From contig CABYPZ010000010.1 in the NCBI GenBank assembly GCA_902521005.1, forward strand, positions 1 to 36,420: a stretch of 36,420 nt of DNA, written 5' to 3'. Positions within the stretch are counted from its first letter, which is position 1. Every line of letters begins with the position of its first letter. A program made the position numbers and the translations under genes. Under the pieces are notes generated by a model. The model did not search any database. It saw only the letters and a program-made list of their open reading frames with translations, and had not been told where the DNA came from. The stretch is from an uncultured Pelagibacteraceae bacterium. GTDB lineage: Bacteria; Pseudomonadota; Alphaproteobacteria; Pelagibacterales; Pelagibacteraceae. Below, in pieces: positions 9,647 through 13,903 of this stretch.

Positions 9647-10657
9647 ATGAATATTGCAATTGTAGGAGCCACAGGAAATGTAGGTAGGAAACTTTTAGAG
9701 GTATTAGATAAAAAAAAATTTCCAATTACAGAAATATTTTTAGTTGCATCCCCAAAAAGTGTGGGGAAAAAAATAAATTTTAAAGATAAAGAATTAATTG
9801 TAGAAGATTTAAATAATTTTGATTTTTCAAAAGTGAAAATCGCATTTTTTGCAGCGGGTAGTGCTATTGCCGAAAAGTGGGCCCCAATTGCTGCAGAAAA
9901 AACTATTGTAATTGATAATTCAAAATTCTTTAGAAATGATGAAGAAATACCTTTGATTGTACCTGAAGTTAATTCAAAAGAATTAGTTCACGTAAAAAAT
10001 AAAAATATTATCTCAAATGCAAATTGTTCAGTTATTCCAATTGTAGTTGCTTTAAAACCTCTTCATGATTTATACAATATAAAAAGAATTGTTGCATCCA
10101 CTTATCAATCCGTATCAGGTGCTGGAAAGGAAGCAATGGATGAGCTGCTTTCACAAACCAAAGACTATTTTGATAACAAAGAAATGAACTCAAAAAATTT
10201 TACAAAGCAAATAGCTTTTAATGCAATTCCACATATAGATAGTTTTTTAGATAATGGCACGACTAAAGAGGAGCAAAAAAATCATGATGAAGTAAAAAAA
10301 ATTTTAGACAAAAAAATTAATATTACTTCTACTTGTGTAAGAATCCCAGTTTTAGTATCTCATTCAATAAGTATAAATGTTGAGTTTAATAAAAAACATA
10401 ATTTAGATGAAATCAGAAATGTACTTTCATCATCCCCAGGATGTAAAGTTGTAGATGAAAAAAAAGATGGTGGTTATATAACTCCGGTTGAGGCAGAGAA
10501 TAAATATGAAACTTTTATATCAAGAATAAGAGAAGATAACTCACAATCAAATACAATAAATATGTGGATAGTATCAGACAATTTACTCAAAGGTGCAGCA
10601 TTGAATGCAGTAGAGATAGCTGAAAGTTTAATCAAAGAAAACTTTTATGAAAAATAG
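9647..10657 (+). CDS. asd: aspartate-semialdehyde dehydrogenase
   Basis: Asd makes aspartate-4-semialdehyde from aspartyl phosphate with NADPH, feeding lysine, threonine, methionine and diaminopimelate synthesis. Seen are the Rossmann start NIAIVGATGNVGRKLLEVL, the active-site cysteine C127 in SNANCSVIP, ASTYQSVSGAGKEAMDEL, and RIPVLVSHSISINVEF with its catalytic histidine. The 336-residue length is normal. Its last 11 bases overlap the start of sdhC. In many alphaproteobacteria asd follows leuB directly; the DMSP cassette separates them here. Confidence 0.96.
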   Translation: MNIAIVGATGNVGRKLLEVLDKKKFPITEIFLVASPKSVGKKINFKDKELIVEDLNNFDFSKVKIAFFAAGSAIAEKWAPIAAEKTIVIDNSKFFRNDEEIPLIVPEVNSKELVHVKNKNIISNANCSVIPIVVALKPLHDLYNIKRIVASTYQSVSGAGKEAMDELLSQTKDYFDNKEMNSKNFTKQIAFNAIPHIDSFLDNGTTKEEQKNHDEVKKILDKKINITSTCVRIPVLVSHSISINVEFNKKHNLDEIRNVLSSSPGCKVVDEKKDGGYITPVEAENKYETFISRIREDNSQSNTINMWIVSDNLLKGAALNAVEIAESLIKENFYEK

Positions 10658-11030
10658 CAATCCATTATCTCCTCATATTCAAATTTATAATTGGCATATT
10701 TCTTCACTAGTATCTATTTCTCATAGAATAACAGGTATAATAAATATTTTTGGTATTACATTTGTTTGTTTTTGGGTAGTCTATTTATTGTCAGGAGCAA
10801 GCTCATATGAAGCAATTAATATTTTTTTTAATTCATTCTTTGGAAAATTTATTATTTTAGGATTAACCTGGTCTTTCAGTTTTCAAATGTTAAGTGAAAT
10901 AAGACACTTATTAATGGATTATGGATATGGTTTTGATTTAAAAGTTGCAAATATAACAGGTTCAATTGTTATCTTAGGATCAATAGCACTTACATGTTTA
11001 ATTTATATTTTTGGAAGGAGTTTAATTTAG
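10647..11030 (+). CDS. sdhC: succinate dehydrogenase cytochrome b-type membrane subunit SdhC, heme ligand apparently lost
   Basis: SdhC is one of two membrane anchors of complex II (succinate:ubiquinone reductase). The 127 residues contain three hydrophobic segments and the family signatures SPHIQIYNW, SISHRITG and IRHLLMDYGYG. The ubiquinone-site positions matching E. coli S27 and R31 are kept as S23 and R27. The position matching the heme axial ligand H84 of E. coli is Q80: the family has Tyr-His-X3-Gly-Ile-Arg-His, while here it is FQMLSEIRH, codon CAA at 10884-10886. The following conserved Gly is Glu. The start overlaps the end of asd by 11 bases, and sdhD follows with no gap. The subunit identity is firm; the heme inference comes from alignment by eye. 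Confidence 0.93.
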   Translation: MKNSNPLSPHIQIYNWHISSLVSISHRITGIINIFGITFVCFWVVYLLSGASSYEAINIFFNSFFGKFIILGLTWSFSFQMLSEIRHLLMDYGYGFDLKVANITGSIVILGSIALTCLIYIFGRSLI

Positions 11031-11354
11031 ATGAACAGAACTACAAAAAAATGGTTATTTATGAAATTGAGTTCAATTATTCTGATACCTTTAATGTTTT
11101 GGTTTATAATAAACTTAGTATCTATTTATGATAAAGATTATCAAGATATTTACATTTTTTTTTCATCCCAACCATCTAAATTCCTTTTTAGTTTAACTCT
11201 TATTTTTGCTTACTTTTTTTCAGCTTTAAGTATTAGTGAAGTATTTGAGGACTATATAAAGGATGAAAAAATAAAATATGTCGCAAATAAACTATTGTAT
11301 TTATCTGCTATAGTATTACCTTTATTAACAATAATTGCGGTATTAAACTTATAA
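11031..11354 (+). CDS. sdhD: succinate dehydrogenase membrane anchor subunit SdhD, heme ligand apparently lost
   Basis: The second membrane anchor of complex II. It has 107 residues with three hydrophobic helices, the usual LIPLMFWFI near the N terminus, and the EDYIKDE end of helix 2. D74 and Y75 match the quinone-site D82 and Y83 of E. coli. The heme ligand H71 of E. coli lies 11 residues before that aspartate; bacterial and mitochondrial SdhD share this spacing. Here the residue at that spacing is F63 (FSALSISEVFED), and the Gly four residues on is Ser. The protein contains no histidine at all. It is directly adjacent to sdhC and sdhA with no gap. Position between sdhC and sdhA makes the assignment safe despite low conservation. 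Confidence 0.9.
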   Translation: MNRTTKKWLFMKLSSIILIPLMFWFIINLVSIYDKDYQDIYIFFSSQPSKFLFSLTLIFAYFFSALSISEVFEDYIKDEKIKYVANKLLYLSAIVLPLLTIIAVLNL

Positions 11355-13130
11355 ATGAGTTCTTATAAAATAATTGATCATGAATATGATGTAGTTGTGC
11401 TTGGCGCTGGTGGATCTGGTTTAAGAGCTGCAGTTGGTTTAAGTGAAGCAGGTTTAAAAACTGCTTGTATATCTAAAGTGTTTCCAACTAGAAGCCATAC
11501 CTCTGCTGCACAAGGAGGAATTTCAGCTGCATTAGGAAATATGGGTGAAGATGATTGGCGTTGGCATATGTACGATACTGTTAAAGGATCAGACTGGTTG
11601 GGAGATCAAGATTGTATTGAATATCTTTGCAAAGAAGCCCCTAGAGCAGTATTAGAACTTGAAAAATATGGTGTTCCCTTCAGCAGAACAGAGGATGGAA
11701 AAATCTATCAAAGACCTTTTGGAGGTATGACAAAAAATTATGGTAATGAGCCAGTTCAAAGAACTTGTGCTGCAGCTGACAGAACTGGTCACGCAATTTT
11801 GCATACTTTGTATGGACAAGCATTAAAACATAACACTGAATTTTTTATAGAGTATTTCGCTCTTGATTTGCTTATGAAAGATGGCGAATGTAAAGGTTTA
11901 ATTGCTTGGAATTTAAATGATGGCACAATTCATAGATTTAGATCTCATATAACAATTATTGCTACAGGTGGATATGGTAAGGTTTATTATTCAGCTACAT
12001 CTGCTCATACTTGTACTGGAGATGGGAATGCAATGGTGCTGAGAGCTGGATTACCTTTGCAAGATATGGAATTTGTTCAATTTCATCCAACTGGAATTTA
12101 TGGTCATGGTACTTTAATTTCAGAAGGAGTAAGGGGGGAAGGCGGATATTTACTAAACTCTAAAGGTGAAAGATTCATGGAAAGATACGCACCAAAAGCG
12201 AAAGACTTGGCATCAAGAGACGTAGTTAGTAGATCCATAGCAATCGAAATAAATGAAGGAAGAGGAGTAGGCAAAGATAAAGATCATGTTCATTTACATT
12301 TAAATCATTTAGACCCTAAAGTGATAGAGGAGAGACTTCCTGGAATTTCAGAATCGTCTAGATTATTTGCAAATGTTGATGTTACAAAAGAGCCAATTCC
12401 GGTAGTTCCAACAGTTCATTATAATATGGGTGGAATCCCAACTAATTACAAAGCTGAAGTTTTAACATTAAATGGATCTGAAAAAACAGTCCCAGGTTTG
12501 ATGGCAATTGGTGAAGCTGCATGTGTTTCAGTTCATGGTGCAAACAGACTTGGCTCAAATTCTTTAATTGATTTAGTAGTTTTTGGAAGAGCAGCAGCAA
12601 AAAGAGCTTCTGAACTAATTAAACCGGGCATGCCACATGAAGAAATTTCACAATTAGAAACAGACAAATGTCTTGAAAGATTTGATAAATTAAGAAATGC
12701 TAACGGAAGCAACAACACAGCCGATCTAAGATTGAACATGCAAAAAACAATGCAGTCAAAATGTGCAGTATTTAGAACTGAAAAAACACTAAAAGAGGGA
12801 GTTGAAGAAATCAGAAAACCTTTTGAGGGAATAGATAATATTGCAGTAAAAGATAAATCTTTAATTTTCAATACTGATTTAGTTGAAACTTTAGAATTTG
12901 ATAATTTAATTAGACAGGCTATCACAACAATGGACTCAGCATATCATAGAAAAGAAAGCAGAGGAGCGCATGCAAGGGAAGATTTCCCCAAAAGAAATGA
13001 TGAAAAATTTATGCAACACACTTTATCTTGGTGTGATGGTTTAAAAACTAAGATAGATTATAGACCAGTTCATAAATCAACATTATCAACTGATGTACAA
13101 TATTTTCCGCCACAGGAAAGGGTTTATTAA
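11355..13130 (+). CDS. sdhA: succinate dehydrogenase flavoprotein subunit
   Basis: SdhA oxidises succinate to fumarate with covalently bound FAD, on the cytoplasmic face of the inner membrane. The 591 residues include the dinucleotide fold [20 protein letters not shown], and [16 protein letters not shown] with H48 as the FAD-attachment histidine. [21 protein letters not shown] is the substrate and active-site region, and [19 protein letters not shown] is the second FAD-binding block. The C-terminal [20 protein letters not shown] is typical. It is adjacent to sdhD with no gap, and its stop overlaps the sdhB start by one base. No key residue appears missing, so electron entry into the complex looks normal. 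Confidence 0.98.
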
Positions 13131-13903
13131 TGGTCCAAATAAATTTACCTCAAAATTCAAAAGTACAAAAAGGTAAATATTATAAAGATAAGACTGGATC
13201 AAAAAGTTTAAGAAAAGTAAATATTTATAGATGGGATCCATCTACAGGTGAAAACCCAAGAATAGATACTTATGAAGTGGATATGGACAATTGTCCATCA
13301 AAGGTATTAGATTTGTTAAATAAAATCAAAAATGAAATTGACCCATCATTAGCATATAGAAGATCATGCTCACATGGAGTTTGCGGATCATGTGCTATGA
13401 ATATGGATGGAAAAAATGGATTAGCATGCACAAAACCTCATGACGAAATAAAAGGAGATATAAATATTTATCCTCTTCCTCATTTAAAAGTGCTTAAAGA
13501 TTTAATTGGCGATTTAAGTACACTTTACAAACAGTACGAGTCAATTGAACCATGGTTAAAAAATACTAGTAATAAGAATGAAAAAGAAAACTTACAAACC
13601 AAAGAAGATCGATCTAAATTAGATGGTTTATATGAGTGTATAATGTGTGCATGTTGTTCGACTTCATGTCCAAGTTATTGGTGGAATGGAGAAAAGTATC
13701 TTGGTCCTGCAGTTCTCTTGCAAGCTTATAGATGGATAATTGATTCAAGAGATGAAGATAGAGAAGATAGATTAAAAAAGGTTGCAGATGAATTAAAGTT
13801 ATACAGATGTCATACAATAATGAATTGCACTAATGCTTGTCCAAAAGGTTTAAATCCAGCAAAAGCAATAGCTGAATTAAAAAAAATGCTGGTAACAAGA
13901 TAA
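13130..13903 (+). CDS. sdhB: succinate dehydrogenase iron-sulfur subunit
   Basis: SdhB carries electrons from FAD to ubiquinone through three iron-sulfur clusters. The [2Fe-2S] cysteines are C80, C85, C88 and C100 ([10 protein letters not shown], then LACTKP). The [4Fe-4S]/[3Fe-4S] domain has [16 protein letters not shown] and [17 protein letters not shown]. The quinone-site tryptophan pair (YWW) and the histidine in CHTIMNC are kept. The 257 residues are slightly longer than E. coli SdhB (238). The start overlaps the sdhA stop. The next gene, mmsA, is convergent, with only 22 bases between the stops and no convincing terminator hairpin. Confidence 0.97.

Follow-up and report, generated by a model that had tools for sequence, protein, structure and literature searches.

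The window analyzed here, a 36,420-nucleotide stretch of DNA from a SAR11 bacterium, carries an intact sdhC-sdhD-sdhA-sdhB operon on its + strand, to which all sdh coordinates below refer. The first gene, sdhC (10647-11030), is an open reading frame for a 127-residue cytochrome b556-type membrane anchor that scores 120.2 bits against TIGR02970 (cut-off 52.3) and 95.8 bits against PF01127; its start is overlapped by the end of an upstream asd-like gene (9647-10657). It is followed by sdhD (11031-11354), an open reading frame for a 107-residue hydrophobic membrane anchor with the E. coli SdhD fold (TIGR02968, 50.8 bits against a cut-off of 41.8), by sdhA (11355-13130) for the 591-residue flavoprotein subunit (TIGR01816, 953.8 bits), and by sdhB (13130-13903) for the 257-residue iron-sulfur subunit (NF004616, 359.4 bits). 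By our reading of the open reading frame list, a succinyl-CoA/2-oxoglutarate/malate gene cluster adjoins sdhCDAB. The closest named record is AG-916-I17, a single-cell genome of an uncultured Pelagibacteraceae bacterium, with 98% identity in SdhC. The genome that we searched comprises about 1.0 Mb in 33 contigs and is 86% complete, and within it the sdh operon is the sole Sdh_cyt (PF01127) locus found; a second, heme-carrying SDH was rejected because there is only this one locus. A search for a phage copy of sdhCD found none. Against the FrdC/FrdD anchor families, SdhC reached only 18.5 bits with PF02313, below the cut-off of 25, and SdhD matched neither FrdC nor FrdD.

A sequence-only reading of this DNA had proposed that both axial ligands of heme b are missing from the anchors, and both substitutions hold up. 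SdhC has Gln80 (CAA, 10884-10886) at the position of the E. coli SdhC heme b ligand His84: phmmer aligns SdhC residues 2-98 without gaps to residues 6-102 of E. coli SdhC (1nek_C), which puts Gln80 on residue 84, the Met of the E. coli H84M mutant chain 2wu2_C falls in the same column, and the relatives agree. SdhD has Phe63 (TTT, 11217-11219) at the position of the E. coli SdhD ligand His71. A search of PDB sequences with SdhD returned no significant relative, and its register therefore rests on relatives and on the predicted fold. Alignment through heme-site-bearing relatives places Phe63 on E. coli SdhD residue 71, and so does an AlphaFold model whose input was SdhC-SdhD read through the TAG stop (mean pLDDT 75.8) and of which the SdhD half alone was used; its residues 131-235 superpose without gaps on residues 11-115 of E. 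coli SdhD (Z 9.5, 2.5 A). The third SdhC helix of the read-through model has a pLDDT below 50, probably because the joined ends lie on opposite faces of the membrane, and the type-B fumarate reductases that top the whole-model fold ranks (Z about 15) reflect its six-helix single chain, not membership in that type. The two codons are as the earlier reading gave them, and translation confirms its statement that SdhD contains no histidine anywhere.

In both subunits the ligand histidine belongs to an HxxxG motif whose glycine lies one helix turn further on, and both glycines are replaced as well: SdhC Glu84 (GAA, 10896-10898) takes the place of E. coli SdhC Gly88, and SdhD Ser67 (11229-11231) that of E. 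coli SdhD Gly75. All 90 sequences that have both histidines carry Gly in the SdhC Gly88 column, whereas 168 of the 169 that have lost at least one ligand carry another residue there, namely Glu or, rarely, Cys or Ser; in every one of the 134 that have lost both it is Glu. The SdhD Gly75 column has become Ser or Thr in 130 of those 134. Four further E. coli residues, SdhC Phe38 and SdhD Val19, Arg20 and Ala23, are located at the edge of the heme or on its propionates (PMC3290573), and the window has Ile34 (10746-10748) at the first of these and Met11, Lys12 and Ser15 (11061-11075) at the other three. In the Phe38 column, bulky Phe or Ile is found in 127 of the 134 both-lost sequences, Leu, Thr or Val in intact SAR11, and Ala, Gly or Ser in other intact classes. 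In SdhD the lost group has shifted to Leu at V19 (Gln or His in intact SAR11), to Lys at R20, and to Ser or Gly at A23. When 232 columns are ranked by how well they separate intact from lost sequences, these four rank 6 (SdhD V19), 9 (SdhC F38), 10 (SdhD A23) and 13 (SdhD R20). The rank-sum p for seven pocket columns is 0.011, uncorrected for phylogeny, and the column shifts are not phylogenetically independent: the pairs that are independent number only 4-5 (sign test p 0.125). Two propionate partners are retained, SdhC R27, which also serves the quinone site, and SdhC His87 (10905-10907; E. coli His91). The column comparison across the clade found no new conserved His, Cys or Met at a heme-facing position. 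Elsewhere in SdhD, residue 22 (11094-11096) is Met in 130 of the 134 both-lost sequences and mostly Leu, Tyr, Phe or Ile in intact SAR11 relatives.

The quinone-site residues, which the earlier reading had listed as kept, are in place. S23 and R27 of the SdhC quinone-site and propionate-side group S23-H26-R27 (10713-10727) are invariant in every class of sequence, as are SdhD Asp74-Tyr75 (11250-11255); these are the equivalents of E. coli SdhC Ser27 and Arg31 and SdhD Asp82 and Tyr83. SdhB retains its cluster cysteines and the motifs SYWW and RCHTIMNC, as judged from its alignment with E. coli SdhB. Median dN/dS values of 0.09 for sdhC (1,054 pairs) and 0.17 for sdhD (95 pairs) indicate purifying selection and are close to the corresponding values of 0.14 and 0.15 in heme-site-bearing relatives. 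By gene content heme is still made and used elsewhere in the cell, since ferrochelatase, COX1 and a cytochrome b that retains all four heme-ligating histidines (both His-x13-His pairs) are present.

We collected SdhC/SdhD pairs from the family, order and class and from named Pelagibacteraceae records, mostly single cells, and write their states as SdhC84-SdhC88/SdhD71-SdhD75 in E. coli numbering. This alignment of both ligand columns in SAR11 and other alphaproteobacteria had been suggested by the sequence-only reading. As read from these sequences, ligand loss is a clade-wide trait of Pelagibacteraceae (SAR11), with INTERMEDIATES. Both ligands are missing in 134 pairs, in which SdhC has Gln (Tyr once) and SdhD has Phe, Tyr or Asn; SdhD is devoid of His in 128 of them. 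One ligand is missing in 31 pairs within SAR11, and both are kept in sister genera, at the base of the order and in nearly all other Alphaproteobacteria. All 80 SdhC loci fetched from named Pelagibacteraceae/Pelagibacter records (mostly single-cell) have Gln/Glu, the accompanying SdhD having Phe in 69, Tyr in 10 and being unread in 1. The window's genus shows Q-E/F-S (33), Q-E/F-T (7), Q-E/Y-S (4) and Q-E/F-N (1), together with Q-E/H in three genomes. Genus g4 has H-E/F-T (15) and Q-E/F-T (1), g2 has both of these states and one H-G/H-G, g14 has Q-E/N-A, g7 has Y-E/N-G, and genera g3, g5, g6, g8, g9 and g12 are H-G/H-G or H-G/H-S. In the sister family g16 is H-G/H-G, g15 Y-C/H-G and g17 Y-S/H-G, and among other Alphaproteobacteria both histidines are present in 54 of 58, the remaining four having SdhC Tyr with the SdhD His kept. 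No double loss was found outside SAR11 among the lineages sampled.

Several individual cases deserve mention in their own right. In the window's genus, L273, L276 and L282 have the Gln/Glu form of SdhC while their SdhD His is kept or regained; with the reverse state in g4, they make up natural one-ligand enzymes of both kinds. L080 of genus g7, with a Tyr/Glu SdhC and an Asn SdhD, has a long branch that falls outside the main clade, and it is likely an independent double loss. L263-L272, from g15 and g17 of sister family f2, represent a separate single-ligand loss in which the SdhC His has become Tyr and its HxxxG Gly has become Cys or Ser, the SdhD His being kept. Finally, the distant Alphaproteobacteria L173, L174, L178, L180 and L182 have Tyr at the SdhC ligand site, with the SdhD His kept in four and SdhD unread in L182.

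On a tree built from SdhA(1-200), SdhC and SdhD after masking of the four motif columns, losses and one-ligand intermediates cluster, and the Glu84 sequences of g1, g2, g4 and g14 all fall into a single clade of 54 rows (SH-aLRT 99), to which His/His sequences are the nearest sisters. The minimum number of changes on this tree is 8 at the SdhC His and 4 at the SdhD His. A tree of SdhA alone fits a single origin of Glu84 without proving it (p-AU 0.52). In sequences with Glu84, SdhC has Gln or His at its ligand site while SdhD has Phe, Tyr, Asn or His, the pattern that would be expected had heme been lost before the ligand codons were released. A parsimonious reading would have the Gly to Glu change and heme loss come first, followed by release of both ligand codons. 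A change from His to Gln, Tyr or Asn takes one base substitution and from His to Phe two, and the near-fixation of Gln80 and Phe63 suggests that these residues have acquired a new packing role. Pelagibacterales appear to preserve the steps of this process: both histidines present, one lost on either side after the Gly to Glu change, and both lost, in addition to the separate single losses in sister lineages.

These findings are consistent with the idea that sdhCDAB encodes a working four-subunit type-C succinate:ubiquinone reductase that has lost heme b, and we hold this to be very probable. The loss of both ligands, together with a pocket altered to match, implies that the enzyme probably works without heme. 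Electrons would pass from succinate through FAD, [2Fe-2S], [4Fe-4S] and [3Fe-4S] to a ubiquinone that sits between SdhB, SdhC and SdhD, and would not travel by way of the heme position. In E. coli complex II the heme lies off the direct electron path, and cells with a heme-free variant can grow on succinate (PMC3290573). Larger or polar side chains, those of SdhC Gln80, Glu84 and Ile34 and of SdhD Phe63, Ser67 and Ser15, would close the gap between the two HxxxG helices and may pack the four-helix core directly in a yeast-like manner. Here we infer the absence of heme, the packing role of the pocket residues and the activity of the enzyme alike.

Ligand loss alone is no proof of heme loss, since E. 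coli axial-ligand mutants keep their heme according to work cited in PMC13066397. Heme b might still be bound, perhaps at partial occupancy, through the cavity and the propionate contacts of SdhC R27 and H87, SdhD K12 and an SdhB His, the two SdhC residues and the His of the SdhB motif RCHTIMNC being retained. We consider this unlikely, since both ligands are jointly gone, the HxxxG glycine is Glu without exception where both are lost, the pocket-edge residues are enlarged or altered, and there would be little reason to keep a heme that has no ligand at all. The sequence-only reading had left a choice between a heme-free and a re-liganded reductase. Its second option would draw on SdhC Glu84 or Gln80 or the clade-specific SdhD Met22; Glu84 (134/134) and Met22 (130/134) are indeed specific to the lost group and Gln80 is nearly fixed. 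However, position 63 of SdhD, which is almost always Phe, offers no ligating substitute, Met22 is some 7 residues past heme-edge Ser15 and so is probably too deep, and no conserved new His or Cys faces the heme position, so that re-liganding seems very improbable. The heme-free option, on the other hand, is well supported by the lost ligands, the pocket Gly to Glu change, the changed edge residues, the invariant quinone site and purifying selection.

That the substitutions stem from assembly errors or a decaying operon deserves almost no credence: we found no evidence in its favor, and against it are the same states in 80 of 80 fetched named records, dN/dS well below 1, and four intact genes at the only PF01127 locus found in the 86%-complete genome. 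The comparative data already refute it, and chance, sequencing error and a pseudogene were likewise rejected. Why the heme would have been lost is a separate matter. Specific adaptation to iron scarcity, as opposed to neutral relaxation of a dispensable cofactor, might be suggested by the fixation of the trait across the sampled genus and by the fact that SAR11 raises Fe(III)-binding transporter genes under Fe shortage (PMC11069385). By known cofactor counts, however, the saving would amount to no more than about one Fe in 10 per complex, and unrelated lineages of Alphaproteobacteria have lost single ligands as well; we regard this explanation as doubtful.

With type-C succinate:quinone reductases (E. 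coli SdhCDAB and mitochondrial complex II) the SAR11 enzyme shares the sdhCDAB gene set and order, two three-helix anchors, the quinone site, and the Fe-S and FAD subunits; it differs from them in lacking both heme b ligands and both HxxxG glycines. The type-D fumarate reductase of E. coli, FrdABCD, is naturally heme-free and has two anchors. It resembles the SAR11 complex in these respects, heme being probably absent from the latter, but it is a menaquinol:fumarate enzyme with anchors of another family and is not the origin of the SAR11 anchors. A parallel is the complex II of S. cerevisiae, which was found to be heme-free by cryo-EM in 2026, its His-heme-His arrangement being replaced by hydrogen bonds and Phe packing; the authors ask for a subdivision of type C (PMC13066397). 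The two share the type-C fold, the quinone site, a heme site with altered side chains and what appears to be a derived loss, but on the SDHC side yeast has retained the His, with Cys in place on the SDHD side, whereas SAR11, known from sequence, has Gln and Phe with Gly changed to Glu. Heme b is also naturally missing from the otherwise respiratory complex II of Tetrahymena and Perkinsus (PMC13066397, PMC10227065), but these are divergent mitochondrial complexes, that of Tetrahymena having many extra subunits and a cardiolipin at the heme position (PMC10227065). Engineered heme-free E. coli SdhCDAB keeps activity and growth on succinate (cited in PMC3290573); it differs in being a laboratory variant in which heme is needed to stabilise the isolated enzyme, a need for which the SAR11 pocket changes may compensate.

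The sequence-only reading knew of no description of such an enzyme. For SAR11 this stands, as we found no report of a heme-free SAR11 or Pelagibacter complex II, and no spectrum or structure of a SAR11 complex II, in the open-access full text that we searched; for the kind as such it does not, since heme-free complex II is already known, natural cases having been published for S. cerevisiae, Tetrahymena, Perkinsus and E. coli FrdABCD. What appears to be new here is the lineage, the loss of both ligands in a bacterium that lives free, the glycine as a marker and the graded series of intermediates. It is likely that the citric acid cycle of the ocean's dominant heterotrophs relies on a type-C complex II that is naturally heme-free, works aerobically and reduces ubiquinone, which would be a bacterial case new to the literature searched.

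The role of heme b in complex II has long been disputed, proposals including a structural brace, an electron buffer and a guard against ROS. Close relatives with two, one and no ligands among the most abundant heterotrophs of the ocean make this role testable by sequence comparison and a few residue swaps. Estimates of the cofactors and iron that SAR11 respiration requires would change, and the annotation 'cytochrome b556 subunit' would be wrong for the SAR11 proteins if heme is absent.
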